DNA of 64,000 nt from Limibacter armeniacum (GTDB taxonomy: Bacteria; Bacteroidota; Bacteroidia; Cytophagales; Flammeovirgaceae). A program made the translations under genes and the position numbers. The notes under the pieces were generated by a model. That model saw only the letters and a program-made list of their open reading frames with translations. It was not told the origin of the DNA and ran no database searches. This document shows positions 15,075-54,100 of this stretch, piece after piece. The DNA lies in contig NZ_JBAJNO010000008.1 in the NCBI RefSeq assembly GCF_036880985.1, positions 558,001 through 622,000 of the forward strand, written 5' to 3'. Position 1 is the stretch's first letter. Each line of letters starts with the position of its first letter.

Positions 15075-15147
15075 GCGAGAGTAGCTCAGCTGGTAGAGCA
15101 CAACCTTGCCAAGGTTGGGGTCGCGAGTTCGAATCTCGTCTCCCGCT
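15075..15147 (+). tRNA. tRNA-Gly(GCC), copy 3
   Basis: Identical in all 73 bases to copies 1 and 2, with the same 4-69 mismatch. It is followed by the 28-bp repeat shared with copy 1 and then a terminator at 15214-15250. Confidence 0.97.
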
Positions 15148-32945: not shown

Positions 32946-33806
32946 ATGACAAGGACTGTTTTAATTGTAGATGATGAATTGGCTAATATTAAGCTGATAG
33001 CCAACTACCTGATGGAGCAGGAAGGTAGCTTCAAGGTATTGACCTCACTGGATCCTGAGAAGGGATTTAAGGTGGCACAGACGTACCTTCCAGACCTAAT
33101 CATATTGGATTGGGAAATGCCTAAGCTGAGTGGGATTACAGTGCTGAAAATGTTGAAACAACATCCGAATACAAAACAGATTCCCATCATCATAGCAACA
33201 GGAAAGATGACTTCTTCAGAGAATTTGGCAACTGCCCTAAATGCTGGAGCAGAAGACTACATTCGGAAGCCTTTGGATACTGTAGAACTGGAAGCAAGAA
33301 TGCAAACAGTGTTTCGGTTAAGTGACCAATACAGGCAGATGGAAGAGATGCTGAAAGAAGAGGTGGAACTGAAAAACCGTAAGCTGGCTACCGCTACTCT
33401 GTATACCTCGCAGAGGAACCAAATGATGAGTGGAGTGATGAACCAGATTGAAAATATACTTTCAGGGAAAACTACTTTAGAGAAAATGAGTATGGACCTC
33501 GTAAACTTGAAAAAGGAGATGGGAGGTTTTTTGGAGCATGATGAGAGTTGGGATACTTATAAAATCCATTTTGAAGAGGTACATCCACAGTTTTTTGAAA
33601 GACTGAAAGAGGCTGAGCCTACTCTGACTCAAAATGACCTAAAGCTTTGTGCCTATTTGTGTATTGGTTTGCATAACAAGGAGATCGCTCATATGTGTAA
33701 TATTTCCTATGAAGGCATTAAAAAATCACTGTACAGGTTGAAAAAGAAATTGCAGTTGGGTGAGGAGGATGACCTTAGAGTCTATATCAAAACGGCTTTT
33801 GCCTAG
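32946..33806 (+). CDS. Response regulator 1 (receiver + HTH)
   Basis: 286 residues. Receiver domain at about 1-125 with acidic pocket Asp9-Asp10, phospho-acceptor Asp55 (LIILDWEMP) and Lys in RKPLD. A helical linker (about 125-215) leads to a C-terminal helix-turn-helix (LTQNDLKLCAYLCIGLHNKEIAHMCNISYEGIKKSLYRLKKKL), similar to LuxR/sigma-region-4 types used by TPR-linked regulators in Bacteroidota. It is encoded just after kinase 1, so the two should form a pair. The repeat TGTCYAC-N4-TGTCYAC downstream of this gene is a plausible target. Confidence 0.93.
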   Translation: MTRTVLIVDDELANIKLIANYLMEQEGSFKVLTSLDPEKGFKVAQTYLPDLIILDWEMPKLSGITVLKMLKQHPNTKQIPIIIATGKMTSSENLATALNAGAEDYIRKPLDTVELEARMQTVFRLSDQYRQMEEMLKEEVELKNRKLATATLYTSQRNQMMSGVMNQIENILSGKTTLEKMSMDLVNLKKEMGGFLEHDESWDTYKIHFEEVHPQFFERLKEAEPTLTQNDLKLCAYLCIGLHNKEIAHMCNISYEGIKKSLYRLKKKLQLGEEDDLRVYIKTAFA

Positions 33807-33832: not shown

Positions 33833-33890
33833 TGTCCACCCTTTGTCTACCCATAAAATTAGGGAGACGAGAGGAATGCAGCTACTTTTG
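33833..33890 (+). promoter_or_regulatory. Direct-repeat promoter of small RNA 1
   Basis: TGTCCAC (33833-33839) and TGTCTAC (33844-33850) repeat in the same direction at an 11-bp period, about one helical turn. Exactly 32 nt later comes the -7 box TACTTTTG (33883-33890). The same arrangement recurs at 34067-34124 and 53909-53966. There is no good -33 box, as expected for an activator-dependent promoter. Confidence 0.7.
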
Positions 33891-33895
33891 TATCG

Positions 33896-34036
33896 TTGTC
33901 ATTTTTACTCATTCTGGTAACTAGTTAACCCAAACTTCTGCAATTAGCTAATACTTTAATAACCTAATATTTCATAGAGTTTAGCTGAAAATCATAATTC
34001 TCAAGGCGCAGCGGACACGTTGCGCCTTTACTTTTT
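33896..34036 (+). ncRNA. Putative small RNA 1 (paralogue of 53972-54100)
   Basis: A promoter (33833-33890) and an intrinsic terminator (AAGGCGCA-g-CG / CG-t-TGCGCCTT at 34003-34028, then T-rich) frame about 140 nt without an ATG. Blocks conserved with the segment after response regulator 2, in order, are GTTGTCATTT, ACTCATTCT, TTAACCCA, ATTTCATAG and GTTTAGCT followed by AAAA. Ends are estimated from the -7 box and hairpin. Confidence 0.6.
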
Positions 34037-34066
34037 CCAATGGTCTTGGAAATAGGGCTTCGGGAA

Positions 34067-34124
34067 TGTCCACATTTTGTCCACCATCAATTCTTAACAG
34101 TAGCATTCGGGGTACGTACTTTTG
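34067..34124 (+). promoter_or_regulatory. Direct-repeat promoter of the giant T9SS gene
   Basis: TGTCCAC at 34067-34073 and again at 34078-34084 (11-bp period), then the -7 box TACTTTTG at 34117-34124, again 32 nt after the second repeat. The giant gene starts 34 bp downstream of the -7 box. Confidence 0.7.
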
Positions 34125-34158
34125 TAACAAAGTATTCTTTCATTTTTCTATCAAGAAA

Positions 34159-37100
34159 ATGCAAAAACTAAAACCGAAACGCACCACTACCGTGAATGAC
34201 AACACTTCATGGATAAAGACGATCCTTTTTATTCTGATAAGCCTAATATCAATTCCCAAGGTGAATGCCATGTCATGGCAGCCTAACAATACCATGGAAG
34301 AAATCGATTATGAAGGATTTCTGTATAACCTGACTGCTCAGACAACTTTTTGGGAGACAAGGTTTACCTCTATGAGTTCTTCCGGTTCCAATATTATATT
34401 CCAGGTTTCATCATCAGTCAATGTTGATTCACAGCACTCCTTTTATTTGATGACAGGTAATCAGGTACTAGCTTCATTCGAAAATAAAAGTATTGCCAAC
34501 AATACTTCAGCTTCCTATTCTATTACCTATGGAGGACAGGCGTTTACGATCTCGATTTACAAGCGGGTCAACGCTGATTCATCTTGGGAATATCTTGTCA
34601 CCTTGCCCAAAACTTTTTACGACTACCTCAACAACAGCAATGCGTATTTTGCCTTTGCAATTGGAGAGAGTAATAATAGCTCAACCAGGGGAACCATTAC
34701 CACTATTCCTTACAGAGAAAGTTTTTATGGTCAAAAAGATATACCCACTGTCGGAACTCCTCTCTATGACTACGATAACAACACGTTGACGTTGGAATGG
34801 GATACCCCTTTCAATATGCATTATGGCATCTTGGACTATGAACTCAATATTGCGGGATCAGTATTGGATGTAGGTTCTTTCTGGAACAATGCTTATCCCT
34901 ATACGACTACTTTTACCTATAATGGAAAAACGTTCAGTGCCAATATTTCAGCTACCACTTCCGGAACCTATGGGGCACATTATACCATGGAGATTCAGGA
35001 TGTGACAAATGGAGACGGACTTTGGCAAAATGCCTATCAGATGGTCATCAAGGCAAAGGGCAGCGCCGGTTTACTGGATAGGGGCGGCAACGCTGACGAA
35101 GTGGTATTCCAACCGAAAAATTATGATAACAGAGTTCAGCAACCTACGATTGCATTTGAATACCTGAGTGGTGATAAAGCCAATGTGACCGTTAGCTGGG
35201 ACACCAAAGAGTATGAGTTACCTCATATGTATGGGTATGCGGTAGGAGCTAAACTGGGCTCACTTCTTACATTTGGTGATGTTAATTATGTTGTGCCAGG
35301 CAGTAACATCTGGTATTATAAGAAATATGTTTCTGGAGAGGAGGAGTCAGGTAACTGTAATGTATCAGTCCCTTCAAATTATGGAAGTGGCACTTACAGT
35401 ATCCTGTTCAAGAACATGGACACAGGTTCAACAGTATTTCAGAACCTGAACCAGCTTTATATCTATCCTTTAGAGAAGCCAATACCAACTTCATTGAGAC
35501 CATCCTACCGTGGGGCGGGATCAACCTATTCTTATCCGGTGCCGGTCAGTCCTGAACCAACCAATGTTAAATTGAACATGATTAACAATGGGGATAACAC
35601 TTTTGACCTCGCTTTTAGTTGGAAGTCTGCAGCCAATACGCCTAATAACTTTTTTAACTACGGATGGACAGGACAGAACATTATTCCACCGATAAAGTCG
35701 GACAACACCTTAAATGGTTTGAGTGCAACGACAGCAGGGAGTATTCTACGATGGACCATTACAAAGGGAACCAAAACTTATACAGTTGAATATGACCAGT
35801 CATTGAGGGTGGAAGACAGTAATGGGGCGACTTCTTATAACCTTACTTTTAAAAATATACCGAACGATGATGCGCTGCTTTTGTATTTGCCGGAGATGCA
35901 GTTGAAATCATACATCACCAAAGCAGGTTTCTATTCTGAAGCGGTTGACTTTACTGTAGAACAGACCGACTTGCTTTCGGATATGGTTTTTACTGGTACG
36001 CCTTCAACGGGTTTGGTTCCTGTAATCAGCAAGCTTCCTGCACCCATATTGGAATACCATCTTTATAGCGATGATGTCAATAGTAGTGAAGTGATCACTT
36101 CCTTATTGCCTGAAGACTTTACAGCCGATGATATTAACAAGCTTTGGACGATACAGGCAAAACTGAAAAACAAGGAAGGATGGCTGACCACCAAGGTGGG
36201 AGTGGTGATTGCGAATTCCGAAACAGCTATCAGTTTTAGGGGGTGTGACCGACTCAGTATCCGCTACAATGAATTAGTATTGCCATCAGGGGTTTCCGGT
36301 ACAGTGGAATATAGAATCAAGAAGAAAGTAGATGGCGAGGATACCGACTTCCAGAACTTTGCCACTACTTCCAGTACTACCTTTGAGGATACGGAAGTAG
36401 CAGCGAACAAGCTTTACAGCTATCAGACGGATATTATTTATGCGGATCTTGATGCAACGGGCACCAATTATCAGGGATTAGTAGGGGTTGTGGATATCGC
36501 TTCCACCACCGAAAAAGCCTCAATTGCTACGATGCCGACGGTGATCAATAAAGAGGTGACCTACAACGTGGATAGTGCAGCACTGCACAGTATCCTGACG
36601 CTTAATAGTGGTGAGTTAAGTGCCATCAAACAGGTAACGGTTTACAGGGTCAATGTCACAACAGGCACGCAATCACCTACAACTGTTCTGTATGATCGGG
36701 ATACAGGAATGGACCCTGACTACGGTACCATTACGGCTACAACACTGGATTATTGGGATGATGATGCTAGCCTACAGAATTGTGAGGCATACCGCTACAC
36801 ATTTGTGCTGAGTGATGACTGTGACAACGATAAGTCTTATACGACAGATGCAGCCCTGATCAGTGCCGATATCTCCAATACCTTTAGTGAAGAGAAGAAC
36901 CTTACCGCCACAAAAGGCTATTACGAAGACTATGTGGAACTGGAATGGGACAACGAAAACAACTCACTCGTTGATGCTTTCCATATCTACAGGGCGCTTT
37001 ATTATTCTGATGATGAGTCAGACCTAAACTGGTTCAAGATTGAGTCAACGGGTTCGGGTACACACCAGTACATTGACCGTACTCTTCAGGCAGGTAAGCT

Positions 37101-40100
37101 TTACAAGTATAAGGTAGTGGCTGAAATCCCGTGTAATGGAGAGGTTTCAGAAATCACTTCCCACACCGTTGTTGGCTTCAGGTCGCCAAGAGGAGTAATC
37201 TCCGGACATATCGAGTACAAAGGTGGACAGGAAGTGAAAGATGTCCGCGTACAGGTAACACACGTAAGCAACTCAGACCGAGGCAGTGCCTTGCTGATGG
37301 AAAACGGTGACCTCCTTCTGACAGACAGTATAGCCAATGCCAACATTATTGAGGTATTGAAAGGCGATTTCACTTTTGAAACATGGTTGCAGCCGGAGCA
37401 AATTGCCAACGGACAATTACGCTATTCCTTGCTGGCAATAGGTGACTCGACCAATGCCGCCCTACAGCTTTATAATGCCGGAACAGGACTGGATGTGATG
37501 GTCACTGGAGGTACAGGAACAGCTGTAACGGATTTTGACGCAGTAAAAGGAGAATGGCACCAATATACAGTAGTGGCAGACACAGAGGCTGGGACTTTCA
37601 GTTTCTATCATGATGGCGAACTGAAAAGCCAGCAATCTCTTGCACAGTTTACTTCCATGATGGCTGCAGCACAGCCGGAAGATCAGGTGTATTTCCTCAA
37701 CGGTTACAACGGTGGAGTGGATGAGCTGAGACTTTGGAGCCGTGCCAAGACTGCAGATGAGGTTGCTATTGACTACAGCCGCATTACCCATAATCAGGAC
37801 AATGACCTGATGGTATATTATAACTTTGATGAAGGCGTAGGCGTAATGGCGTACGACCAGTCCAAGAATGAGGACAATATCTTTAACCAGCGTCATGCAC
37901 TTGCCACAGCCAAGATTCTTCAGTTCCTGAAAGGAAACTTTATCCCGACTTCAGACCAGTTGGGGTATGTAGGCTATACGGACGAATACGGTAACCATAT
38001 TGTGTACGGTATCCGCTACACGGGTTCTGGGGAATCGTTCAAGGCAATTCCGAACAAGGGTGTGCATGAGTTTTCACCTTCTTCAAAAGTAGTCTATATC
38101 GGCGACAACAGCCGTGCGGTAAACGGGGTGGATTTTCAGGATATTTCTTCTTTTGTCGTATCAGGTAAAGTGACTTTTGATGAGGACAGCGATCCTTCCA
38201 ATACCTCACTCAACATTCCGGTAGATGGCGGTCTGGTGAAAGTAGACGGTGAAGCTGTCATCTATCAGGGAGAGCAAGTCTTCACCAAGGAAGACGGAAG
38301 CTTTGTGATCGAGGTACCGATCGGAGAGCACTTGCTGACCATTGAGAAAGATGGACACATTTTCAGAAATGAATATACGGCAACTACACTGCTGGGCGCA
38401 GATTCTACCTATTACAAGGTAGAAAACAAGGTGCGATTCTATCACGATTTTCAGGAGCCAATCAGTACCCTTACTTTTAAAGACATGACAAGGGTGATTG
38501 TGATAGGTAAGGTAGTCGGTGGACTGGTGGAAGCCGGAAAAGACCTGATCTTCGGAGGAACAGTGAACAACATCGGGGTGGCGGATATTACCTTCAAACC
38601 TCAGAATACCCTATACAATAGCCTTGAAACAACAGTTCGTACTGGTACGGAAACAGGTGAGTACAGAATAGAACTGCTGCCGATCAATTATATCGCCAGT
38701 GCACCTGTGGCACTCAATAATACTTTCAGCTTTGATGAGGAAGATGATCAGCGTCTCCTTTCCCTGAGCAAGACAGATTTGGTTAACCTCAATTCGGTAT
38801 CGAAGGATTTTATCATATCTGATACCGAGTTGGATGTTTTTGAAGAAATGGAAACGTTGGGTTGGCTAGGCAGGGAAGAGTTGGTCAATGATACCACCGC
38901 AGTAGTGGACTCGGTAAGACTGACCTATCCTTTCCATGAGAAAGCAAGCTTTATGTATGCTGCCACTCCGAAATTGTCAGTTTTCAATGAGGATGGTTCC
39001 TTTCCACTGAAAGGAGCATTACAGATCGTAACAGAATACGATACGCTACAAGTTGATACGTTGGGATTGGCTTATCCGGTATTCCAGCAGGGAGATTCGG
39101 TAGTCTATCAGTTGAATGCTTACGAGGAATACCTGAATGCAGATAGTGATAGTATTGTTTCCCGTTATCCGGTAATTGGAGAGGTATTGTTCCAAAATAA
39201 TTTTGCTTCAGGAAATTCGGAAAGGGTGTCTCTTACTTATGAAACAGGAGACGAGACCAGTCAAGCTTATTATGGTTTCCGTGTGGGAGAACCGAATGTG
39301 GTACCTCCACACCTGAAAGCCATGTCGGTAGAGTTGCATACCAGTACACAGGTGATTCCTTGGGACAATGGAGGAACCAATGTACAACAGGGTTATGTAG
39401 TAGGTGCCCGACAAGTGGACGGCAACTTTGTGACTGCCGGACCGGACAGGGTGAAATGGGTATTGAGAGATCCTCCAGGCTCCAACAGTTATGCCTATAT
39501 CGATGAAGGCTCCAAGCTGACGGAATATTCGGAAACCCGTCTGACGGATATGACCAAAAACCAGTTTGAAGTACTGGCAGTAGATGATATCAGTATCAAG
39601 AAAGCCGTATTCTTTGGTTTGGGAGCAGGTTCAGTGGAAGATATTTTTAAACTGGATCTCAAATCCAAGGCAGGTACAGGTTTCAACCGTGACAAGACGA
39701 CCAACAAGACCAATGCGCAGATTCTGACCACAACCACCAGGCAGCGTATCCAGACAAGCGCCGAGTCGGATGGGGTAGGCAGCAGTGCTGACTTATTTAT
39801 CGGTTATGCACAGAACTATAAGGTTGGGCAGACTATTGGCGTGGAAATTCAGCGCAATGAAGATGGTACATATGGTATCGACTCTTTGAGTGTGTTGGGA
39901 ATTCAGCCAGCTGACCAGACCTTCTTTACCTACACGCAGAATCACATCCGCAATTATTTGATTCCAGATCTGGTAGCGATCAGAAATAGTTATCTGGAAA
40001 ATAATCCGGCACATTACACTTCTCATTTGGAGAAGGATCATCCACTCTACGGAATGAGCAATGACAGCCCAGTATTTGGAGCTGATACAGTCAGCTTGCC

Positions 40101-43100
40101 ATTGGGAGTGTTTCCGGCAACAGGTTATGGTGGCGAAAGCTATACGTTTGTACCAAGCAATGATTTCCCGATGGACTCCGTATACATGACCAACCTTCAG
40201 ATAGAGGAATGGATCAGTGCTCTGAGACAGAATGACCATATTAAGCTACTGGCAAAGCAGGACTTTGATGGTGGTAATACAGATAACCTACTGAAAGATT
40301 ACTCCATGAGTGGTGGTGCAGAGGTGTCTTATGAAGAATCATTTGTAGCCAGCAGGGAATATAATGACGAATGGTTGGATGCCTATAGTGGCTACTTTAC
40401 GAGTAATACTGAAGGTAAATTACTGATACTGGGTTATGGTGTCGGTTTTGATCAGAAAAGCAATTTCCTGACGATGAGGGAGACTTCCTTAAAAGTGGGG
40501 AATATCAGCGAAAATTCCGTGAAATGGGGCTTTGTCTATAGCGATCCTGAACAGGGAGACCGTATTAACTTTAAGGTGACCAAGCCATCCTTTAACAGGA
40601 AGAAGTTTGATGAAATGCGTATCAAGGAAGCGGAAGATATGTATGACAGGGATGCAGGTGATATTGTAGCGATGACACTGGTAGGGGTTAACTACGCCAA
40701 AAGTTTTGCGCTGACCAAAGCGAAGGTACCAGGATTGATAGCGGATCAAGTATTGTCAACAGCAATGGCTTTTGCCCTGATGAATATCGTGCAGCTCAAT
40801 GATGACATTGTCAACGAGGCGTTCAACGACAGTACTGTGTCAGACTTTGAGACACCAGTATTTATCACCGAAGGAGGTATTACAGCTTGTCCGCACGAAG
40901 ATGCAGAAGTCTCCTACCTGTCTCCGGAATATACGGATAGTAACTACAGCCCTGTTCTTTTGGGTAGCAGAACCTTGCAGCGGGATGTACCTGAAATTTC
41001 GGTAGGTACAAACCTGAAGCACCAGAAAATCTACAATGTGCCGGACGATCAGCCAGCAGTATTCAAGTTAAACCTGAGCAACCTGAGTGAATCGGGAGAC
41101 ACAAGGGTTTATTCCCTGAAAGTGTTGCAGGGCAGTAACCCAGACGGTGCTCAGATCAAGATTGACGGAATTTTCCCAGACAGGGATTTTGATATTCCGG
41201 CAGGAACAACCCTACGAAAGGAGTTGACACTGGAAAGAGGCGCAACCACACTGCAATATGATAGCATTATGCTAGTGCTACACTCACCTTGCCAATACTG
41301 GTTGGGAGCGCAGAATAACCTTGATCTGGCAGAGATTGCAGATACGGTTTACCTGTCAGCAGGTTTCCTGCCTACCTGTTCCACACCTGAATGGGAGCAG
41401 CCAGAGCAGAACTGGGTCGTGAACTACGATGACGGCGACCTTCTTGAATTGGAACTGGGAGGGTACGACATCAACTATTACAGCCTTGAAAAGATTACCC
41501 TGCAATACCGCAGGGTAGGAACAACGGACTGGTTGCCTGTGACGGACGCTTTTTATAAGCAGCAGGGCAGCTCGGTAAGTGCTTCAGGAACCACCGTCTA
41601 TGAATACCGTGAGAATGGAATTACACTGTATGATTCCCTGACTGAAAAGCAATGGATACCGACCAGCAGCGCTACCCTTTCATGGCAATGGGATTTGAGC
41701 AATGTAGTGGACGGGGAATACGAAGTAAGAGCGGTTACCTACTGCCATGTGGATGGGCAGCTATCCAAGGAATATACGGAAGTGTTTGCCGGAACCATTG
41801 ACCGTGAACTGCCAAGCGTATTCGGTTCGCCTTCACCTTCTGACGGCATTCTAGGCGCAGGAGAAGAATTGAGTATTTCTTTCAATGAGGATATCAACAG
41901 GGCATTGCTGAACGTAACAGGACAGCTGGATATCAGAGGCAAACTGAACTATGCAGAAATCAAGCATGAGGTAAGCGTTTCCTTTGACGGATTAGAACAG
42001 CATGTCCGTGTGCCTTTCGGTCCAGACCTGCGCTCGACTTCCTTTACAGTGGAATTCTGGGCAAAACATGAGGCAACAGGCAAGAAGGAGATTGTGATCT
42101 CGCAGGGACAGCAGGCAGTAAGCAGCTGGGAAATCGGTTTTGATGAAAGCAATGCCCTGTATGTAGGCATCAACGGTACAGAAAAAGTGGCTGCCATGCC
42201 GGTAACCGAAATAGGTTGGAACCACTACGCAGTCAGCTTCAACGAGGATTCAAAAGTGGTGGAGCTTTTTGTGAATGGTATCTGGAACAACAATACCTAC
42301 GCCTTGCCGCAGCAGGTATATGCCGATGGAGAACTGATTGTCGGATACGGCAGCTATGATCAGGTACATTACTTCGAGGGCAGCCTGCACGAACTGAGAA
42401 TCTGGAACCATGCCCGCAACAGTGGGGCACTGACCGAGTATATGAATGCGACCCTGTCAGGACAGGAAGCAGGATTGTTGGGTTATTGGTCAATGGATGA
42501 ATTGGGCGAAAGTGAGCTGTTGGATAAGGCTCGCCATCGCAATGCAGAGATGAATGCTGCTTGGGAATTGGCACACAAAGGTTACGCCTATGACCTGAGC
42601 GCGATTGACAGCCTTTCAATCAATGCCTCAACCATTGGCTTTACTTCGGAACAGGAATATACAATCGAGTGCTGGTTCAAGACGAACACCCTGACATCAG
42701 CAGCAACCTTGCTTTCCAACGGAAAGGGAACAGCGGATGATCCCAACACGCAAGGCTGGTCAGTAAACCTGCTGGCGGATGGCAGTTTGCAGCTTACCAA
42801 CAACGGACTGACTTTGACGGCAGCAGGCAACTATGGCGACAACCAGTGGCATCACTTTGCCATGACGTATGGAGAGCTGACAGGTGTAAGTGTTTACATG
42901 GACGGCAAACTGGCAGCCAACAGAAAAGGCGGCATCAGTGGCTTTGCAGGTTCAAGCATCTATTTCGGACAGCGCTACTTCCAGAACGGAACCCTGCTAC
43001 AGCTTGACCAGAAAATGGACGGCGTAATCGATGAGATCAGAATCTGGAATACCAGAAGGACGGAAGCGCAGATCAGACGTTATCGCCATCAGGCATTGGA

Positions 43101-45261: not shown

Positions 45262-45271
45262 TCTGGCATTA

Positions 45272-45432
45272 TCCCAAAACCAAGGGCGACCATGTAGGGT
45301 GCTCAAACTGGTGCAAGTATTAGCCTAACAAGGGAGCGAAGCGAGTGAAGTTGGGCGATACTTGTACCACCTATTTTGGGAAGCATATGCTTCCTTTTGA
45401 AAATAGTCCAAGCACCGCTTCGCTAATGCTTG
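45272..45432. other. Structured intergenic element of nested inverted repeats
   Basis: TCCCAAAA (45272-45279) pairs with TTTTGGGA (45374-45381) and encloses a long imperfect stem, GGTG-CAAGTAT-GCC-AAC (45310-45329) with its complement at 45350-45371. Next come a perfect 16-bp palindrome GGAAGCATATGCTTCC (45379-45394) followed by TTTT, and a hairpin CAAGCA/TGCTTG (45409-45432). No reading frame is present. It may end the giant gene's transcript, or be a structured RNA. Confidence 0.6.
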
Positions 45433-45479
45433 AACTAGTAGAACATAATCCATAACTCATTTTGATATAGCGTTAAGTA

Positions 45480-46520
45480 ATGACAAAACCGATTAAAAAT
45501 CTGATATGCACGCTGTGGTTTTCCCTCAGTTGGATCAATGCCGAAGCACAGACAAGCAGTTGGGCAGTTAACGCTGCCGATTTTGAATACAGCATGACCA
45601 TTACTGCCCTGCTACTGACAGATGAAGGAATTTCAGCTGACTTGCAGGATAAGGTGGCAGTATTCAGTGGTGAGCAGTGCCGAGGTGTAGCTAATGTTTC
45701 AAAGTCCAAAGATAAATGGGGAAGTAACCTCATTTTCTTGGTGGTCTATTCCAACAGCTATACAGAAGAAGGACTCACCTTTCAGTATTATGATGCTTCG
45801 CAGGATAAGGTAGTAGCGACCTCTGTTGCCATTTCTTTCAAGGATTCAGAGAGGTTGGGAACAGTAGATAAGCCAATCATCTTGACAGCAGATCAAATCA
45901 ATAGACAGCCTGAAGCACTTGCATTGAGCAGCAATACGATTCAGGATGGAAGTGGGATTGGTACTGTCATCGGACAGTTTACTGTAGCGGATGATCAGAC
46001 AGAAGGACATACCTATTATTTGCCAGAAGGAGAGGAAGACAATGATAGCTTTATGCTGGAAGGTGATATCCTCAAAGCGGCTACTGAGTTTAACCGGTCA
46101 GAAAAAGCATCTTATCAGTTGCTGGTAGGCGTGGATGATGGTTTTGGAGGTATGCTGGAAACGATGTTTGATATCTCAGTAATCGCTGCGGATTCTACAG
46201 GTTCACAAAATCCTGATCCCGATCCTGACCCTGATCCAGATAGTGAACTGCCTTCCAGTTTATCCTTTACCTCCATCATTACCCCGAATGGGGATGGTAA
46301 GAATGATCAGTTGCAGATCATCGCTGACAACCTTTCCGTGTTTACGGACTTTACGCTTGTCGTGTACAATGCTTCAGGATTGGAAGTGTATCGTGCTGTA
46401 AACTACCAAAGTGATTGGGACGGAACCTACAATGGTCACGCACTGCCAGCGGGGGCTTATTTATACCGTTTCAGTAGTCCGGCAAAAGAGTATAAAGGAA
46501 CCTTTTACATTGTACAGTAA
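45480..46520 (+). CDS. Secreted protein with cadherin-like and T9SS type B sorting domains
   Basis: 346 residues. The signal peptide ends near NAEAQ. Residues about 27-140 form a W-x-V-N domain (SWAVNAADFEYSMTITAL, DKVAVFSGEQCRGVANV) homologous to the two near the end of the giant protein. A cadherin-like repeat follows (about 150-240), then a Pro-Asp linker (PDPDPDPDPDS) and a C-terminal gliding-type CHU_C/type B sorting domain (ITPNGDGKNDQLQI ... WDGTYNGHALPAGAYLYRF). Type B cargo typically depends on a co-encoded PorP/SprF protein, and such a gene follows after 6 bp, so the two form an operon. It probably acts on the cell surface together with the giant protein. Confidence 0.88.
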   Translation: MTKPIKNLICTLWFSLSWINAEAQTSSWAVNAADFEYSMTITALLLTDEGISADLQDKVAVFSGEQCRGVANVSKSKDKWGSNLIFLVVYSNSYTEEGLTFQYYDASQDKVVATSVAISFKDSERLGTVDKPIILTADQINRQPEALALSSNTIQDGSGIGTVIGQFTVADDQTEGHTYYLPEGEEDNDSFMLEGDILKAATEFNRSEKASYQLLVGVDDGFGGMLETMFDISVIAADSTGSQNPDPDPDPDPDSELPSSLSFTSIITPNGDGKNDQLQIIADNLSVFTDFTLVVYNASGLEVYRAVNYQSDWDGTYNGHALPAGAYLYRFSSPAKEYKGTFYIVQ

Positions 46521-46526
46521 CCCGTT

Positions 46527-47435
46527 ATGAAAAACCGATTGATTCTACTGTTGATCATCCTGCTGACAGGAACGATGGCGCAGGCACAGTCATTGAATGA
46601 TACCTATTTCTACACCCAAAATTTCTATAAGATAAATCCGGCAGCCACGCCCGGTTCAGGTCATCTACAGGCAATGGTACATGCCCACTTGCAGCAGATG
46701 TCGCCGGAAGGATTGCCTTCCCAGCGAATGGGCTTAAGCCTGAATGCCGGTTTGGGACAAATCGCTGTTGGAGGCAATCTGCTGTATACCCAGCAGGGCT
46801 TTTTGAATTCAACAAAGGCAAGTCTTTCTTTTGCCTATACCTTGGAAGTGACCCGTGAGGCAAGCATGTCTTTTGGTCTGTCGGCAGGGGTTTCCAATGA
46901 TGATTGGCGCTTTGAAAGCAGCCAGCTGCAAGGCGTTGATCTGACGGATCCCTATCTGGAATATGGAACGGGATTGCTGAAACCTTCTCCAACTATTGGC
47001 TTTGGTACAGTTCTCAACTGGAAGCAGTTGACTGTTGGGATATCTTCCTCAGAACTGATGCGTATCTCGGACAACTATTTCAGTATTGCGGATATTTTTG
47101 CCCGATATGAGTGGGAACTGAATGAGCAAGTTACATTGGCTCCCATCGTGGCAGCAACTTTCCATAATGTAGAGAAAACAGTAACGGATATTCATCTTCA
47201 GGCAATTCTAAGGGAGAAGCTGTGGTTGTCGACAGGTTATCGTTCTACTGGAAAAGCGATGTTCTCGTCTGGTTTGGAGATGGGGTTGTTCAAGGTATCT
47301 TATGCTTACCTGCATAACTTCGGACAGTTATCAACATTTAATGACAGGCAACACGAAGTTGCGGTTCTATTCGATATTGAAACAAATAGTAAAAGCAAGG
47401 GCAGAAGTGCCCGAACGAGATACAGAAGAAGATAA
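46527..47435 (+). CDS. PorP/SprF-family type IX secretion membrane protein
   Basis: 302 residues. A signal peptide (ending MAQAQ) is followed by the family's opening pattern, QNFYKINPAATPGSGHLQAM, and then an outer-membrane barrel of about 14 strands. SprF/PorP-like proteins pair with type B cargo, helping export and surface attachment of the partner encoded next to them; here the partner is the cadherin/type B protein 6 bp upstream. The last residues are strongly basic (GRSARTRYRRR). A degenerate copy of its last codons recurs after kinase 2 (50188-50219). Confidence 0.9.
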   Translation: MKNRLILLLIILLTGTMAQAQSLNDTYFYTQNFYKINPAATPGSGHLQAMVHAHLQQMSPEGLPSQRMGLSLNAGLGQIAVGGNLLYTQQGFLNSTKASLSFAYTLEVTREASMSFGLSAGVSNDDWRFESSQLQGVDLTDPYLEYGTGLLKPSPTIGFGTVLNWKQLTVGISSSELMRISDNYFSIADIFARYEWELNEQVTLAPIVAATFHNVEKTVTDIHLQAILREKLWLSTGYRSTGKAMFSSGLEMGLFKVSYAYLHNFGQLSTFNDRQHEVAVLFDIETNSKSKGRSARTRYRRR

Positions 47436-47456
47436 TTCCCCGCGAACAATAAATTA

Positions 47457-47513
47457 AATGGGCAGCACCAAGGTTTATAAAGTATTTTACTCTGGTATTG
47501 CCCATTGTTTTTT
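47457..47513 (+). terminator. Terminator of the type-B/PorP operon
   Basis: AATGGGCA pairs with TGCCCATT around a loop holding a smaller ACCA/TGGT pairing, followed by GTTTTTT. Confidence 0.75.
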
Positions 47514-47612
47514 CTCCTTTTTTCACTTCATAACATTCCGTATGTTCATATGTTTGGATTTGAATTTGAAATGTTAAGTTGTACTGAAAGCAAGTCACTA
47601 TAGGAATTCTCC

Positions 47613-47656
47613 AATGAAAATCATTTAATTAGAATTTCTATATTGCGACTTATTTT
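47613..47656 (+). repeat. 44-bp upstream repeat of kinase 2 (identical to 50388-50431)
   Basis: 44 bases identical to the segment before kinase 3, about 50 bp before each start codon. It contains AATGA-AAA-TCATT and ends in an AT-rich stretch; TATTTTTG at 47651-47658 is a possible -7 box here but is altered (TATTTTCC) before kinase 3. It probably holds the shared promoter or operator. Confidence 0.8.
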
Positions 47657-47704
47657 TGTGTTGGTGACAACTTGCCTTTAATCATCTCAAACCAAAACTG
47701 AACA

Positions 47705-50170
47705 ATGAGAATCCAACTGGTACTCTCTGTCTTTTTACTACTTATATCTTACTGTAATTTATCTGCTCAAACGCAAGAAATGCTCACAAATCAGCACCCT
47801 GATATTGATCGGGTGGAAGCGTTGAGCAGAAAAGGAGACCGAAATTCTCTGATTGTTCTGGACTCTTTGAAGCAAGCCAGAAAAAACCTGAGTGCTTCTG
47901 AGGAGGTATTACTGCTACTGAATAGGGGCCGCTTTTATGAAAATGCACTGAAGTTTGACTCTGCCAGTATTCATTTTGAGCAAGCGATCACTTACCAAGA
48001 CAAGGGATTAGAGTCTTTGGGATTCAAATCCTTGGGCTTCTGCTTCAATGCACTTGGGCACTGTCACTGGAAGATGGGGAACTATGATCAATCCATCGGG
48101 AATTATAAAAAAAGTATTTTCTACTTCGAAAAGATCAGCTTTGATAAGGGACTCTCTTTCAGTCATCAGGATTTGGGACTCGTCTACCAGGAGGGAAAAA
48201 GCGACCTGGTGGAGGCAATCAAGCAGTTCCGGAAAAGTATGGCTTATGCTGAGAGCAGTGGTCAGAAACTGGGGATCCCGGTAAATCTTCATAACATAGG
48301 GTTAATCAAGTTGGAGCTGGGCTTGGGCAGGGAAGCACTTGAAACTTATGTGAAGGCAACTGAATTTTTTGAATCAGATTCATCCCTGAAAAAAGAAAAA
48401 AATTACCCCTATTTTCTGAGTAAAAAAGCCCATGTACTCATCACCCTCGGTGAGTATGAGCAAGCCGTTAAGCTATACGATAAAATCCTGTTGATCGCCA
48501 AAGAGTGGAATGATCAGAGACTTACGGCCCTAACTCACCGGAACCTTGGGGGTGTCTACACGAAGATGAATGAATTCGAACTGGCCAAAAAATACCTGTT
48601 TACTTCTAAAGAAAAACTGGAAAGGCTGGAGTACAAAGAGCCTGCTGTCCTGCTGTATCAATTGCTGGTGGATTATTATGACCGGACTGGTGAGGTAGAC
48701 AGCGCTTTGTATTATATCGAAAAAGCCATTGACCTGGCAGATACCAAAGGAGGAGAAGAAAGTCAGGTCAAGGTGCGTGAACTGAAGCTGAAACTGCTCA
48801 TTGATCAGCAGCAATGGAAGGAGTCACTTGAATTGGGGGGAATCCTGCTTCAAAAAACACAATCCCGGAAACAGCTGAAACTAGTGGCACAGACCCAGAA
48901 ACTGATGGCGGAAGCGCATAGGCAGCTAGGAAACTTTCAGGAATCGGTAGCATATTATCAGGGGCATGTGCTCAACCGAGATAGCTTAGACAAACTTAAC
49001 GAAGCCAATGACCTGATCAAGGCTGAAATTAAAACAGAATTCCAGACTGAGAAACTCAAGATTGAGAAAGAAAATGAGCGGAAGCAGTTGCTGCTTAAGC
49101 AGGAAATAGAGCAGGAGAAACTTTTACGGACAATTGCTGTAATGGTACTTTTACTGGTCGTGGTCGGCTTGGCGATTGTCTGGCGATTTTACCAGCAGAA
49201 GAAAAAAGCCAGTGAGCTGATTGCGGCACAAAAGGCAACACTGCAGGCGCAGCATGAGCAACTGGAAGAACTCCTCAATTTTAAGGAAAACATGACCAGC
49301 ATGATTGTGCATGACCTGAAAAACCCGTTGAGTACCGTGATTAATCTTTCCTCTGGAGGGCAGGTGGACAGCAAGCGAATTCAGCAGGAAGGGAAACGGA
49401 TGCTCAACCTGGTGATGAATATCCTGGAAGTGGGCAGGTACCGTGAAGCGAGTGTTTCCGTGAAGCTAGAGGAAGTTTCGCTGGCGGAATTGCTCGAAGA
49501 AGCCAAGGCTCAGGTCAGCACGATGCAGCAGGATAAGTCGATTGTGATGCAGCTGCCAGAGGTGGATATCACCCTGAAGATCGACCCCTATCTGGTGGAA
49601 AGGGTATTGGTGAACCTGCTGACAAATGCCATTAAGTTTTCTCCTTTGGGCGGCAGTATTCGCATTACCTGCCAGCCGGTCGATGAGAAATGGGTACAGA
49701 TCAGCATGCAGGATGAAGGCATTGGCATCCCGAAAGAAGATCAGGAGATAGTTTTTGAATTGTACCAGCAAGCTGGAGGCGAAAAAATCAAGTCTTCGAC
49801 AGGATTGGGCTTAAGTTACTGTAAATATACCGTGGAAGCCCACGGCGGTGAAATCGGTATCAGGTCGGAAGAAGGAAAAGGGACAGAAGTATTTTTCGTC
49901 TTGCCGTTAGCTGAAAAGCAAATAGAAAATAACTCAGTGGTTCCGGTGAGCGCCTTGGCAAAGGATGAAAAAGAAGAGGGGGTGTTGGTGCCGGTCAAGA
50001 CAGAACTCAGCCAGTTTTCGGCTTATCAGTACTCGGAAGTCGTGAAAGTACTTGACCGCTTGAAGAAAGAGGAACTTTCCGGACAAATGATTGACTGGAT
50101 GGAGGCCGTAGAGATGGCCAGCCTGACAGGTAACCAGGCTAAGTATGAGCAGCTGACCAAAACGAATTAG
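47705..50170 (+). CDS. TPR sensor histidine kinase 2 (no adjacent regulator)
   Basis: 821 residues with the same plan as kinase 1: signal peptide ending NLSAQ, about seven TPR units (FNALGHCHWKMGNYDQSIGNYKK), membrane helix at about 477-497, HisKA with His536 in HDLKNPLST, N box NLLTNAIKFSPLGG, G1 DEGIGIP, G2 GLGLSYCKY, and the conserved C-terminal tail (YQYSEVVKVLDRLKKEELSG). It is followed by a terminator, not by a regulator gene, so it must signal through regulator 1, regulator 2 or one elsewhere. Its codons look slightly more GC-rich than those of kinase 3. Confidence 0.93.
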   Translation: MRIQLVLSVFLLLISYCNLSAQTQEMLTNQHPDIDRVEALSRKGDRNSLIVLDSLKQARKNLSASEEVLLLLNRGRFYENALKFDSASIHFEQAITYQDKGLESLGFKSLGFCFNALGHCHWKMGNYDQSIGNYKKSIFYFEKISFDKGLSFSHQDLGLVYQEGKSDLVEAIKQFRKSMAYAESSGQKLGIPVNLHNIGLIKLELGLGREALETYVKATEFFESDSSLKKEKNYPYFLSKKAHVLITLGEYEQAVKLYDKILLIAKEWNDQRLTALTHRNLGGVYTKMNEFELAKKYLFTSKEKLERLEYKEPAVLLYQLLVDYYDRTGEVDSALYYIEKAIDLADTKGGEESQVKVRELKLKLLIDQQQWKESLELGGILLQKTQSRKQLKLVAQTQKLMAEAHRQLGNFQESVAYYQGHVLNRDSLDKLNEANDLIKAEIKTEFQTEKLKIEKENERKQLLLKQEIEQEKLLRTIAVMVLLLVVVGLAIVWRFYQQKKKASELIAAQKATLQAQHEQLEELLNFKENMTSMIVHDLKNPLSTVINLSSGGQVDSKRIQQEGKRMLNLVMNILEVGRYREASVSVKLEEVSLAELLEEAKAQVSTMQQDKSIVMQLPEVDITLKIDPYLVERVLVNLLTNAIKFSPLGGSIRITCQPVDEKWVQISMQDEGIGIPKEDQEIVFELYQQAGGEKIKSSTGLGLSYCKYTVEAHGGEIGIRSEEGKGTEVFFVLPLAEKQIENNSVVPVSALAKDEKEEGVLVPVKTELSQFSAYQYSEVVKVLDRLKKEELSGQMIDWMEAVEMASLTGNQAKYEQLTKTN

Positions 50171-50187
50171 ACCTAAACTTATTTAAA

Positions 50188-50219
50188 TGCCCGAGCGAGG
50201 GACAGAAGACGAGAATACC
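50188..50219 (+). pseudogene. Remnant of the porP-like gene 3' end
   Basis: These 32 bases match the last codons and stop region of the porP-like gene (47408-47440) at about 27 positions (TGCCCGA-CGAG--ACAGAAGA-GA-AAT). The match continues into the following terminator and upstream repeat, showing that the duplication unit began inside the porP-like gene. Confidence 0.7.
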
Positions 50220-50237
50220 TTCAAAAAAAATAGCTGA

Positions 50238-50280
50238 ATGGGCAGCACCAAGGCATTTACATTGGTGCTGCCCATCTGTT
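50238..50280 (+). terminator. Terminator of kinase 2
   Basis: A perfect 14-bp stem (ATGGGCAGCACCAA / TTGGTGCTGCCCAT), homologous to the terminator at 47457 after the porP-like gene but better paired. Confidence 0.8.
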
Positions 50281-50387
50281 TATTCCCTCCTGAAAAAATT
50301 TTCCACCCCACGATAACACCCTATTTGTTTGGGTTTGGATTTGAAATGTTAAGTTGTAATGAAAGTAGGTCATGATAGGAGTTTTCT

Positions 50388-50431
50388 AATGAAAATCATT
50401 TAATTAGAATTTCTATATTGCGACTTATTTT
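50388..50431 (+). repeat. 44-bp upstream repeat of kinase 3
   Basis: Identical to 47613-47656. See the entry there. Confidence 0.8.
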
Positions 50432-50484
50432 CCTGTGCACTGATTACAACTGGACTTTCCTTCATCTCAAAAATAACGGAACTG

Positions 50485-52953
50485 ATGAGACAACTGCTGC
50501 TCTCTACTTTACTGCTGTGCTTTTTTTTACAGAACGGGCAAGCCCAAAGCAACGAACGGCTTACTCCTGAACATCCTGATATTAATCGTGTTAAAGATAT
50601 TCTTAGAGGGAATCATGGAAGAAAACCTTTGTTTCTTCTGGATTCTATACAGCAAGCGCGTCAGCACCTTAGTGTGTCTGAAAAAGTCTTGTTGCTTCAA
50701 CTGAGAGGACAGTATTATGAATACTCCCACCGTTTTGATTCCGCAATTATCATTTTCAAAGAAGCACTCCAATTTCAAAATGCTGAATTGGACTCAATGG
50801 GAATAGAGGCTTTGGGGCTTTGCTATAATGGTTTGGGGCACAGTCATTGGAAAAAAGCCAAGCGTGAGGAATCTATCCAATATTATCAGGAAAGTAATAA
50901 GCTTTATGAAAAGATTGGGTTTGAGCAGGGACTGGCCTATAACTTTCAGGATATGAGTCAGGTGTATTATGCTGATGGGAATATTGTTGAATCCATACGA
51001 CACTCCAAACAGGCAAAAGTCTACTCTGAAAAAGTGGGAGATAAGGTAGGAATCGCTTTTTCTTTGAAGAATATCGCAAATGTAAAGCAGGACTTAGGTT
51101 TGGGAAGGGAAGCTTTACAGAACTATATCTTGGCTACAGAAATATTTGAGTCAGATTCGTCACTTATTAAACAGCGATATTATGTCTGGTTTCTGAATCA
51201 GAAAGCCATTCTTTATCAGGATTTGCATGAGTATGAGCAGGCAGAGAAGAATTATAAGAAGGCATTACTGTTCGGAAAGGAAAGAGGTGATGAATATTGG
51301 ATTGCGTTAATCAAGAGGAATTTAGGTGCTTTATATACACGAATGAAGCAATATGATCTGGCTGAAACTTATCTGTTTGAGGCAAAAGAACAGATGGAGG
51401 CCTCAGAGTATAAGGTTTCTTCTGTATTGATGTATAAAAATCTGGCTATTTATTATCAGGAAATAGATAAGCACGATAGTGCCATGGTTTACATCGACAA
51501 GGCAGTAACGCTAGCAGATAGTATGGGTCGCCATAATAACCGCGTTAATATGCGTAAGGTGAAAGTGCATTTGTTGGGTGAAGAAGAAAAGTGGGATGAA
51601 GCTATTGCCTTGGGACTAGAAGTCTTAGAGCTTTCTGATGGGAAAAATGAGTTAGGTAATTTGGTTGAATTAGAAAAGCAGCTAGCCAAACTGTACTATA
51701 AGCAAGGGAAAAACTATAAAAAGGCAGCAGGTTTTTTTAACCGATATATCCATAACAAGGACAGTCTTGATAAGCTGAGTGAAACTAAAGACTTGCTCAA
51801 AGTTGAGATTCAGGCAGAGTACCAGATTGAAAAGAATAATATCGAAAAAGAAAATGAGCGAAAACAGCTGATACTTAAGCAGCAGGTAGAAAAGGAGAAA
51901 CTACTAAGGACTGTCTCATTGGGTGTTTTGGTACTTGTGGTCATTGGTTTATTGATTGTATGGAGGTTCTACCAACAGAAGAAAAAAGCCAGTGAACTGA
52001 TTGCAGCACAAAAGGAAGAACTACAGACACAACACGAACAGTTGGAAGAGCTTTTGAATTTTAAGGAAAACATGACCAGTATGATTGTCCATGACCTTAA
52101 AAACCCTTTGAGTACTGTGATTAACCTTTCTAATAATGACCATGCCGATCTGAAGCGCATACAGCAGGAAGGTAAGCGTATGTTTAACCTGGTGATGAAT
52201 ATACTGGATGTCCGTAAGTTTAAGGAAGCCAATATGTATTTGCAGCCAAAGCCCGTTTCCCTTTATCACTTGCTGGAGGAGGCCAAGACTCAGGTAAAGT
52301 TGCTCCAAGATGATAAGTCTATTCTTTTCCATCTTCCTGAGATTGAATTGACAGTGAATGTAGATGCTTATATGGTCGAAAGGGTATTTGTCAACCTATT
52401 GACCAATGCCATCAAGTTCTCTCCATTAGGGGGAAGTATTCATATCAAATGCGATCAGGTAGATAAGGATTGGGTCAAAATCAGGTTTATCGATGAAGGT
52501 ATCGGTATTCCGAAGGAAGTGCAGGAACAGGTGTTTGAGTTGTATCAGCAGTCAGGAGGGGAGCGTATCAACTCTTCTACAGGTTTGGGCTTAAGTTATT
52601 GCAGGTATACGGTAGAGGCCCATGGTGGAGAGATAGGAATCGTATCAGAAGAGGAGAAAGGAACAGAAGTATATCTTACTTTGCCGTTAGCTGCAACAGA
52701 AGTAATTTATTCAAATACTTCAGCTGTCAATGTTAAGCCTGCTATTGGAGCTGAGCATATAGCCTTCCTTAAACCTATTAAGGAACAATTGGAAAATATA
52801 CCAGCCTACCAATATTCGGAAGTGTTGTCAGTGTTGTCTCAGTTGGATAAAAATAAGGTTTCTGAAAACATTACAACATGGATGGGAGCAGTAGAGGCTG
52901 CGAGTTTAACGGGTAATCAGGAGCAGTATGAGCGACTTTTGAAGAGTGAATAG
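50485..52953 (+). CDS. TPR sensor histidine kinase 3
   Basis: 822 residues. Signal peptide ending GQAQ, TPR units (YNGLGHSHWKKAKREESIQYY and others), membrane helix at about 477-497, HisKA His536 in HDLKNPLST, ATPase boxes NLLTNAIKFSPLGG, DEGIGIP and GLGLSYCRY, and the conserved tail (YQYSEVLSVLSQLDKNKVSE). The catalytic half and tail are close to those of kinases 1 and 2, whereas the TPR sensor half is more diverged, as expected if the copies now read different inputs. It lies 66 bp upstream of response regulator 2. Confidence 0.93.
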   Translation: MRQLLLSTLLLCFFLQNGQAQSNERLTPEHPDINRVKDILRGNHGRKPLFLLDSIQQARQHLSVSEKVLLLQLRGQYYEYSHRFDSAIIIFKEALQFQNAELDSMGIEALGLCYNGLGHSHWKKAKREESIQYYQESNKLYEKIGFEQGLAYNFQDMSQVYYADGNIVESIRHSKQAKVYSEKVGDKVGIAFSLKNIANVKQDLGLGREALQNYILATEIFESDSSLIKQRYYVWFLNQKAILYQDLHEYEQAEKNYKKALLFGKERGDEYWIALIKRNLGALYTRMKQYDLAETYLFEAKEQMEASEYKVSSVLMYKNLAIYYQEIDKHDSAMVYIDKAVTLADSMGRHNNRVNMRKVKVHLLGEEEKWDEAIALGLEVLELSDGKNELGNLVELEKQLAKLYYKQGKNYKKAAGFFNRYIHNKDSLDKLSETKDLLKVEIQAEYQIEKNNIEKENERKQLILKQQVEKEKLLRTVSLGVLVLVVIGLLIVWRFYQQKKKASELIAAQKEELQTQHEQLEELLNFKENMTSMIVHDLKNPLSTVINLSNNDHADLKRIQQEGKRMFNLVMNILDVRKFKEANMYLQPKPVSLYHLLEEAKTQVKLLQDDKSILFHLPEIELTVNVDAYMVERVFVNLLTNAIKFSPLGGSIHIKCDQVDKDWVKIRFIDEGIGIPKEVQEQVFELYQQSGGERINSSTGLGLSYCRYTVEAHGGEIGIVSEEEKGTEVYLTLPLAATEVIYSNTSAVNVKPAIGAEHIAFLKPIKEQLENIPAYQYSEVLSVLSQLDKNKVSENITTWMGAVEAASLTGNQEQYERLLKSE

Positions 52954-53019
52954 AACCTATGGTAAGTGTTTCTCGTATGTTGGGAATGTGAATTTTTGAA
53001 TAAAATAGCAAAAGAAATA

Positions 53020-53883
53020 ATGCGAAAAACAGTGCTGATTGTAGATGATGAAGTAACAAACATCAGACTCATTGCAGAGTATTTGGCAAAACAGAAAGAT
53101 ACCTATGAGCTACTGACATCCCTAGATCCTGAACAGGCATTTAAGGTTGCAGCAGAACATATCCCTGATTTGATAATATTGGATTGGGAGATGCCGAAAA
53201 TGACAGGTATTGAACTGCTGAAGGTATTAAAGGAGGATAACCGTACGCATTCCATCCCTGTTATTATTGCTACAGGCAAAATGACTTCTTCTGAAAATTT
53301 GGCAACTGCATTGGAAGCTGGGGCAGAAGACTATATCCGAAAGCCACTCGATACCATTGAGCTGGAAGCAAGGATAAGAACGGTGCTGCGCTTGAGTGAG
53401 CAATACAAGCAGATGGAGCAAATGCTGAAGGAGGAAGTGGAGCTTAAAAACCGGAAACTGGCTACAGCTACCATGTATACTTCTGAGAGAAACCAACTGT
53501 TGAGTGGGGTTGTAAATAGGTTGAGCAATATGCTTGAAAAGCCAGATGAGAGCCATCAAAATCTACTGAAAGACTTAAAGGCTTTGAAAAAGGAAGTAAC
53601 AGGCGTTTTGGATATGGATGAGAACTGGAATACTTATAAGATCCATTTCGAAGAGGTGCATCCCCAGTTTTTTGAAAAGCTGAAGGAGGAGCAACCCACC
53701 TTGACAAATAATGACTTGAAACTGTGTGCATACCTCTGCATTGGCTTGGAAAATAAGGAGATTGCACATATGTGTAACATATCGTATGATGGCGTGAAGA
53801 AATCACTTTACCGTCTCAAGAAAAAATTTCAGTTAAGTGAAGAGTATAGCTTGAGAACATATATCTCAAACTCCTTTGCTTAA
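53020..53883 (+). CDS. Response regulator 2 (receiver + HTH)
   Basis: 287 residues from the ATG at 53020. A GTG at 52966 is in frame, but alignment with regulator 1 supports the later start (MRKTVLIVDDE against MTRTVLIVDDE). Receiver with Asp9-Asp10, phospho-acceptor Asp55 in LIILDWEMP and Lys in RKPLD; C-terminal helix-turn-helix LTNNDLKLCAYLCIGLENKEIAHMCNISYDGVKKSLYRLKKKF. The recognition-helix region is nearly the same as in regulator 1, so both should bind the same DNA site; the linker (about 150-195) differs. It forms a pair with kinase 3. Confidence 0.93.
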   Translation: MRKTVLIVDDEVTNIRLIAEYLAKQKDTYELLTSLDPEQAFKVAAEHIPDLIILDWEMPKMTGIELLKVLKEDNRTHSIPVIIATGKMTSSENLATALEAGAEDYIRKPLDTIELEARIRTVLRLSEQYKQMEQMLKEEVELKNRKLATATMYTSERNQLLSGVVNRLSNMLEKPDESHQNLLKDLKALKKEVTGVLDMDENWNTYKIHFEEVHPQFFEKLKEEQPTLTNNDLKLCAYLCIGLENKEIAHMCNISYDGVKKSLYRLKKKFQLSEEYSLRTYISNSFA

Positions 53884-53908
53884 TGGCTTATGCAACTTTT
53901 TGCTAGCC

Positions 53909-53966
53909 TGTCTACTATTTGTCTACTGGGTAAAATAGGATGAGGGAGTGAGAGCCTATACATTTG
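53909..53966 (+). promoter_or_regulatory. Direct-repeat promoter of small RNA 2
   Basis: TGTCTAC at 53909-53915 and 53920-53926 (11-bp period), then the -7 box TACATTTG at 53959-53966, exactly 32 nt after the second repeat, as in the two sites near 34 kb. Confidence 0.7.
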
Positions 53967-53971: not shown

Positions 53972-54100
53972 TTGTCATTTAACTCATTCTAGATTAACCC
54001 AGACTTTATAGTTAAACCATGATTTCATAGCCAACGATGACATGACGTTTAGCTAAAAACCGTAATCTTAAGGGCGTGGAGAATTCTTCCCGCCCTTTTT
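53972..54100 (+). ncRNA. Putative small RNA 2 (paralogue of 33896-34036)
   Basis: About 130 nt from the promoter to the terminator (AAGGGCG ... CGCCCTT, then T-run, 54070-54100). It shares ordered blocks with small RNA 1 (GTTGTCATTT, ACTCATTCT, TTAACCCA, ATTTCATAG, GTTTAGCT). The only ATG frames inside are two or three codons long, so it is unlikely to encode a peptide. Ends are estimates. Confidence 0.6.

Follow-up and report, generated by a model that had tools for sequence, protein, structure and literature searches.

Three copies of a seven-base direct repeat, TGTCYAC-N4-TGTCYAC, stand before promoters in a 64,000-nucleotide stretch of the Limibacter armeniacum genome (the window; contig NZ_JBAJNO010000008.1, here C8:558001-622000), and they raise the question of which protein reads them and what they switch on. 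As an earlier note on this DNA stated, two of the promoters follow response-regulator genes, RR1 (32946..33806, + strand, as are all features given below) and RR2 (52966..53883, likely true start 53020), and the third precedes the gene for a 3700-residue protein of the type IX secretion system (T9SS). Our reading, which we consider very probable, is that the three sites are cognate activator operators of RR1 and RR2, that two of the promoters would make short RNAs, and that the layout recurs within a Bacteroidota family of helix-turn-helix (HTH) regulators.

The three repeats were recovered without a mismatch at the positions first reported, and the distance of 32 nt to a TAnnTTTG -7 box proved exact at each of them. 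Operator 1 (TGTCCAC-CCTT-TGTCTAC, 33833..33850; box TACTTTTG, 33883..33890) begins 27 bases after the last base of the RR1 stop codon, and operator 3 (TGTCTAC-TATT-TGTCTAC, 53909..53926; box TACATTTG, 53959..53966) begins 26 bases after that of RR2. Operator 2 (TGTCCAC-ATTT-TGTCCAC, 34067..34084; box TACTTTTG, 34117..34124) begins 92 nt 5' of the likely ATG (34159) of the giant gene, whose mechanical open reading frame (ORF) opens at 34066 beside the operator. A scan of the window with up to two mismatches gave five matches, compared to a mean of 0.92 in shuffled sequence, and none of 100 shuffles got to five. The earlier note had not found the repeat elsewhere in the noncoding parts of the window and called for a scan of the whole genome (8.04 Mb). 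There the exact composite pattern, TGTCYAC-N4-TGTCYAC followed by N32 and TAnnTTTG, was present at the three window sites only. Candidate copies with up to three mismatches were rejected as further sites, as four additional places against six for a reversed control pattern amount to background. The bare repeat gave six listed matches in the genome, namely the three sites, an orphan, and one coding sequence counted twice, probably because contig C1 overlaps itself. The orphan (TGTCTAC-TCTT-TGTCTAC, C9:654669-654686; L006, L184) is intergenic, lies between convergent genes and has no -7 box at 32 nt.

Both regulators combine a PhoB-like receiver with a C-terminal NarL/LuxR-type (GerE) HTH, joined by a linker in RR1 (Pfam, NCBIfam, and alignment). 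They are 71% identical, and their recognition helices are almost the same, as had been noticed before (SYEGIKKSLYRLKKK in RR1, SYDGVKKSLYRLKKK in RR2). In Pfam, the receiver is followed by GerE with E-values of 5.8e-6 and 2.1e-5 (26.3 and 24.5 bits, cut-off 23.5), and no winged-helix Trans_reg_C domain was found in either protein at E up to 0.001. The receivers scored highest against PhoB models, yet far under the cut-offs, and the NCBIfam PhoB (TIGR02154) matches are confined to residues 1-145 in RR1 and 19-165 in RR2. The best solved match to a profile of the HTH was EsrB (E 0.0036), followed by a designed protein (0.019) and DevR/DosR (0.08).

An HTH profile (A3), which includes RR1 and RR2 and therefore matches them by construction, was used to pick related loci. 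It occurs at 18 places in the own genome, one of which resembles an ECF sigma factor and one of which is the C1 duplicate, and with E-value limits of 1e-10, 1e-14, and 1e-10, respectively, it was found in 16 of 18 genomes from the family, 83 of 146 sampled from the order, and 54 of 119 from the class. When every fourth of 174 HTH proteins was inspected (44 in total), 38 matched TPR_12 and three a receiver; only 11 reached GerE at E 0.001, and the HTH family is thus a diverged branch. Loci were taken from the best matches listed for the family and the order and from an apparently complete list for the class, leaving out HTH proteins of about 900 amino acids and more, and were grouped into a first set of 51, a second set of 80 from outside the family and 40 held-out loci from outside the order. 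The first set includes L138 and L145, which had already come to notice in a motif search, and 11 own-genome loci seen earlier, whereas the 80 and the 40 were previously unseen. The counts exclude L179-L184, chosen by motif, and L185-L187, with HTH proteins of 970-1020 amino acids.

In the noncoding DNA of these loci, 7-bp direct repeats were counted over a grid of periods (8 to 15) and distances before TAnnTTTG (20 to 49). Under a fixed criterion, by which half-sites start with TG, with no more than one half-site mismatch and a total of two mismatches at most, the combination of period 11 and distance 32 was met 8 times in the 51 loci (mean of the other combinations 0.137, maximum 2), 9 times in the 80 loci (0.343, maximum 4) and 6 times in the held-out loci (0.090, maximum 4), compared to none in 20 arbitrary 20-kb regions (0.082). 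The orthologous pairs L129/L130, L244/L245, and L289/L290 are counted among the 17 hits in the 51 and 80 loci. With TG-anchored half-sites at three stringencies, the 131 loci of these two sets gave 9, 15, and 20 cases at (11,32) versus 0.03, 0.155, and 0.55 per other combination. The corresponding control counts were 0, 0, and 0 in the arbitrary regions, which come from 19 genomes and hold less noncoding DNA (49,656 vs 123,355 nt). Without an anchor and with at most one mismatch in all, (11,32) again ranked first in the set of 51 loci (10 vs a mean of 0.36). TGT-anchored repeats as such amounted to 43 matches in 123 kb, compared to 3 in 50 kb of control; nine of the 11 clear repeats that were re-inspected lacked an exact -7 box at a distance of 24 to 44 nt.

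The exact composite pattern was also found in three of 57 other related genomes (G021, G031, and G047) and in one of 394 other genomes of the class sample (G080). Three of these four copies lie directly 3' of a gene of the HTH family with a K-type helix (VKKSRYRLRKN twice, VRKNRYRLRKK once); identity to RR1 is as low as 31 and 34% in the two VKKS domains. The fourth, in G021, lies 5' of a TPR protein, and no HTH of the family was found in the 6 kb read. Taken together, these counts support the assignment of the operator layout to the HTH family and not to RR1 and RR2 alone. The same geometry beside other genes of the family likewise speaks for the suggestion of the earlier note that an activator binds in fixed phase with the promoter.

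The absence of a -33 box, on which that suggestion had partly relied, holds for the window, as the 32-nt spacers of its three sites contain no TTG. It cannot be generalized, since among 19 comparable promoters elsewhere, three orthologous pairs included, 10 have a TTG 22-25 nt before the -7 box. In many relatives' spacers a run of T follows the repeat after a few nucleotides (e.g., ctgTTTTT), which is absent at the three window sites and is possibly a bent or UP-like element.

The half-sites themselves vary with the adjacent regulator. TGTCYAC accompanies K-K helices, TGTCTAT the helix NTSRYRL, TGTAGAY NMSRYRL, TGTAGAG AMARYRI, TGTGCAC NVARTRL, TGTCCCS KKTLYRI and RKHQYRI, TGAAGGG ETxRYRL, and TGTAACC KMSRNRL. 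Similarity in helix residues 5-11 correlated with that of the half-sites across 26 regulator-operator pairs, a number of which came from motif searches (r 0.354, a value reached in 8 of 5000 permutations; 0.304 and 14 of 5000 after removal of near relatives). Residues 0-4 performed nearly as well (r 0.300, 12 of 5000) and residues 5-8 less well (0.239, 36 of 5000; without near relatives 0.177, 144 of 5000), so that the correlation in part reflects general relatedness. Helix positions 5, 6, and 9 were among the single positions that correlated with the half-site, and position 2 ranked highest. The NarL residues K188, V189, and K192, which we take to be its base contacts (a citable paper was sought and none found), align with positions 5, 6, and 9. 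Across the 131 HTH-chosen loci, base 4 of the half-site split by helix residue 6. With K or T, TGTC-N7-TGTC occurred at 13 of 70 loci and TGTA-N7-TGTA at 5; with M, V, or I, the respective numbers were 0 and 14 of 54 (p 2.9e-5 over loci). After clustering at 70% domain identity (96 clusters), 10 and 4 for K/T stood against 0 and 12 for M/V/I (p 2.0e-4). In the held-out loci, K/T gave 8 TGTC and 1 TGTA of 26, and M/V/I 1 and 5 of 10 (p 0.011); the four loci with another residue 6 all carry Q, and three of them had TGTA. The proposal that RR1 and RR2 are the natural binders thus gains support from both the family geometry and the correlation of helix residues with half-site bases.

Several observations weigh against the assignment of these operators to RR1 and RR2 and their relatives. 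The full layout at exactly 32 nt was found at just 23 of 171 HTH loci and a TGT-anchored repeat with at most one mismatch at only 36 of 131, so most regulators of the family have either no such operator nearby or a different one. The preferred distance is also less sharp without an anchor: with an exact box, (11,33) was the top combination in the 80 loci (8, followed by 7 at (11,32), vs 0.47), and in the held-out loci distances of 30, 31, and 32 reached 10, 9, and 10 (mean 1.28), a tie between 30 and 32. Furthermore, related loci are not independent, the first set had already been seen when residue 6 was split into K/T and M/V/I, and neither TGTC nor TGTA occurred at the ten loci that have I there. 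A relaxed repeat, TGTNYAC, had no match in 51 loci of RR relatives, including the receiver-HTH loci L031 and L032; the peptide patterns behind those loci missed the HTH, and many of them are therefore unrelated receivers. Finally, as no promoter beyond the three was found genome-wide, the regulon would be very small.

According to the mechanism that we propose, two copies of the NarL/LuxR-type HTH would sit head to tail on the repeat, one helical turn apart on the same face of the DNA, and the bound regulator would activate the promoter that has its -7 box 32 nt further downstream. Given the almost identical recognition helices, RR1 and RR2 probably both act on all three promoters. Promoter 2 would yield the giant surface protein of the T9SS and perhaps also serve the T9SS genes that follow, while promoters 1 and 3, directly behind the regulator genes, would yield short terminator-ended RNAs. 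Across the HTH family, the half-site sequence would follow the recognition helix.

Promoters 1 and 3 indeed appear to drive noncoding RNAs and no gene, since no ATG-started ORF of at least 25 codons begins before the terminator at either promoter. Candidate small RNA 1 would comprise about 141 nt (33896..34036, with the start placed from the -7 box) and end at an intrinsic terminator with an 11 bp stem and a T-rich tail (34003..34028). Candidate small RNA 2 (about 133 nt, 53972..54104, start inferred) contains an interrupted stem followed by a T run (54070..54097), which was not listed by a simple terminator finder and was seen in the fold. The two stretches are identical at 91 of 137 positions (66%), with 9 gap columns, compared to 24 of 68 fourfold-degenerate sites (35%) and 131 of 286 third positions in the flanking regulator genes, which argues for selection on the stretches unless gene conversion hit just them. 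The whole stretches fold more stably than shuffles (z -3.85 and -3.66, terminator included); structure beyond the terminator was not clearly above shuffles (z -0.55 and -1.68). Neither stretch had a match in Rfam at E up to 1. A covariance model of the pair (R1) was scored against 150 of 329 candidates in the own genome and gave no convincing third copy (the next hit had 24.5 bits, E 0.93); in 25 other loci its highest score, 15.8 bits, was not convincing either. A search of plasmid DNA gave no match, and pairing with the start regions of 11 window genes reached a longest perfect match of 10 nt, at the RR1 start, which is not persuasive.

Could the sites belong to something else? That three similar sites were misread as a regulon by chance is very unlikely: short motifs do recur in 64 kb, as the expectation of 0.92 at two mismatches illustrates, but no further exact copy exists in the 8.04 Mb, and the geometry counts were raised in three sets of loci. 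Another alternative is that the repeats serve an unrelated winged-helix regulator of the OmpR/PhoB type, and that the HTH genes lie beside them incidentally. Direct repeats of 11 bp are typical of Pho boxes, and PhoB models are the best match for both receivers, albeit far below the cut-offs. The DNA-binding domains of both proteins, however, match GerE and contain no winged helix. Moreover, the layout is enriched beside genes of the HTH family, which mostly encode TPR proteins without a receiver, it was found in none of the 20 arbitrary regions, and the half-site base shifts with the recognition helix of the neighboring HTH gene. The alternative is accordingly improbable, and operators read by the HTH family are preferred.

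For the two noncoding stretches, the main competitor of independent small RNAs is that sites 1 and 3 are simply the ends of the regulator mRNAs and the conserved stretch a 3' untranslated region or attenuator. The sites do start 26-27 bases after the stop codons, and read-through from the regulator genes would stop at the same terminators. Against this, the operator and -7 box that open each stretch are spaced as they are before the giant gene, and both elements are kept in the two copies although only 24 of 68 fourfold sites are identical, which makes a mere mRNA end unlikely. Both could be true if the 3' end of the regulator transcript were also made from its own promoter. Somewhat less likely still is that the resemblance of the stretches reflects duplication or gene conversion without function. 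The neighborhood has been duplicated, as the 71% identity of the regulators and the similarity of the adjacent sensor kinases HK2 and HK3 to HK1 (51 and 56% identical) indicate, and both the unremarkable folds beyond the terminator and the want of a convincing third copy fit such an origin. With the fourfold sites near saturation, though, identity at 91 of 137 positions would need a conversion confined to the noncoding DNA. Short RNAs made from promoters 1 and 3 therefore remain the preferred explanation.

The 19 operator promoters elsewhere were followed by a same-strand ORF in 14 cases, and nine of these ORFs have a hydrophobic leader as judged by eye (L138, L145, L176, L177, L225, L238, L250, L256, and L292). 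L289 and L290 have no same-strand gene and a terminator about 156 nt past the box. At these loci (L289 1140-1300, L290 3447-3600), about 150 nt lie between the operator promoter and a strong terminator; no ORF of 25 codons precedes the terminator, and the stretch is a candidate small RNA of another genus. In L129, a terminator lies about 360 nt past the box, with a similar hairpin in L130 that the finder did not list, and in L134 more than 700 nt past the box lack an ORF of 60 codons; these stretches, too, are no more than candidates. Extended to the family, which is large and little studied, our reading combines one rigid layout, a code in which K or T at residue 6 reads C and M or V, perhaps Q, reads A at base 4, and, at some loci, regulator-linked RNAs by giant T9SS genes. 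This broader generalization is tentative, with a little less than an even chance of being right; the RNA part of it rests on the window, twice, and on the candidates L129/L130 and L289/L290.

The order of genes around the three sites is a TPR kinase, RR1, operators 1 and 2, the gene for the 3700-residue protein, a CHU_C protein, PorP/SprF, two TPR kinases, RR2, and operator 3. The T9SS genes, the form of the -7 box, and the named relatives point to a member of the Bacteroidota. HK1 (30407..32917) is a TPR-HisKA-HATPase sensor kinase according to Pfam. The secreted 3700-residue protein (34159..45261) contains laminin-G-like domains and a T9SS sorting tail; 3' of it, domain matches identified a CHU_C-tailed T9SS substrate (45480..46520) and a PorP/SprF-type T9SS membrane protein (46527..47435). 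The TPR sensor kinases HK2 (47705..50170) and HK3 (50485..52953) are paralogues of HK1. The regions 5' of HK2 (47436-47704) and HK3 (50171-50484) have a conserved block in common, a trace of tandem duplication and possibly a common leader.

Outside this neighborhood, a third receiver-HTH gene of the genome (Pfam; L169, G000:C1:99661-105912) stands beside a variant operator. This near-match, TGTTGAC-GCTT-TGTCTAC-N32-GACCTTTG, precedes a divergent ORF with a hydrophobic leader. L367 and L381, guessed from their length to be receiver regulators, showed no receiver in Pfam and were not used as such. On contig C1 (381,380 bases; L001/L002, L091/L092), matches recur at a constant offset of 355,338 bases (378,141 minus 22,803), and the HTH genes at 4,213 and 359,551 show the same offset. 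C1 is thus probably a circular replicon of about 355 kb that was assembled with a 26-kb overlap. Three tRNA genes lie in a row at window positions 14568-15147 with equal Rfam scores (64.1 bits).

What is new in these results, and largely supported by the sequence comparisons, is the recurrence of the layout across an HTH family, together with a code that can be read in part, and the presence of candidate small RNAs behind two of the three promoters. Such TPR- and receiver-linked NarL-like regulators are encoded in 83 of the 146 genomes sampled from the order. If the fixed geometry and the helix code are true, operator and target would become predictable for each regulator from its helix, the predicted target often being a neighboring gene with a hydrophobic leader. 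Promoters could then also be designed with the activator at a defined position in a phylum whose promoters are unusual, and the two regulator-linked RNAs, if real, would add a post-transcriptional layer.

A search of the literature on the subject retrieved nothing similar to the operator layout and no binding sites for the family. Like RR1 and RR2, regulators of the NarL/FixJ class consist of a receiver and a C-terminal GerE-type HTH. The heptamers bound by that class are mostly inverted or occur in various arrangements, whereas the repeats described here are direct, with a period of 11 and a fixed distance to the -7 box, and the receiver is PhoB-like. The Pho box consists of tandem 7-bp half-sites with a period of 11 and a 4-bp spacer, so PhoB/OmpR operators share the direct repeat; they differ in the fold of the DNA-binding domain, and the window sites are distal (about -63 to -46, as estimated from the inferred starts) and precede a Bacteroidota -7 box. 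In GacA-RsmY/RsmZ circuits, a response regulator with a LuxR-type HTH directly targets small RNA promoters with a conserved upstream site. The window modules resemble these circuits by layout, and their candidate RNAs have no match in Rfam.

A further comparison is offered by the SusR-like and hybrid two-component system (HTCS) operators described in Bacteroides (Ravcheev et al., 2013, PMC3878776), which likewise are direct repeats before Bacteroidota promoters, with motif similarity tracking regulator similarity. The centre distance given there is 67 or 77 bp for SusR-like operators and on average 21 bp for HTCS operators, in contrast to the period of 11 in the window. Furthermore, HTCS proteins unite an AraC-type HTH and a kinase in one chain, whereas the system described here comprises a separate kinase and a regulator with a GerE HTH.

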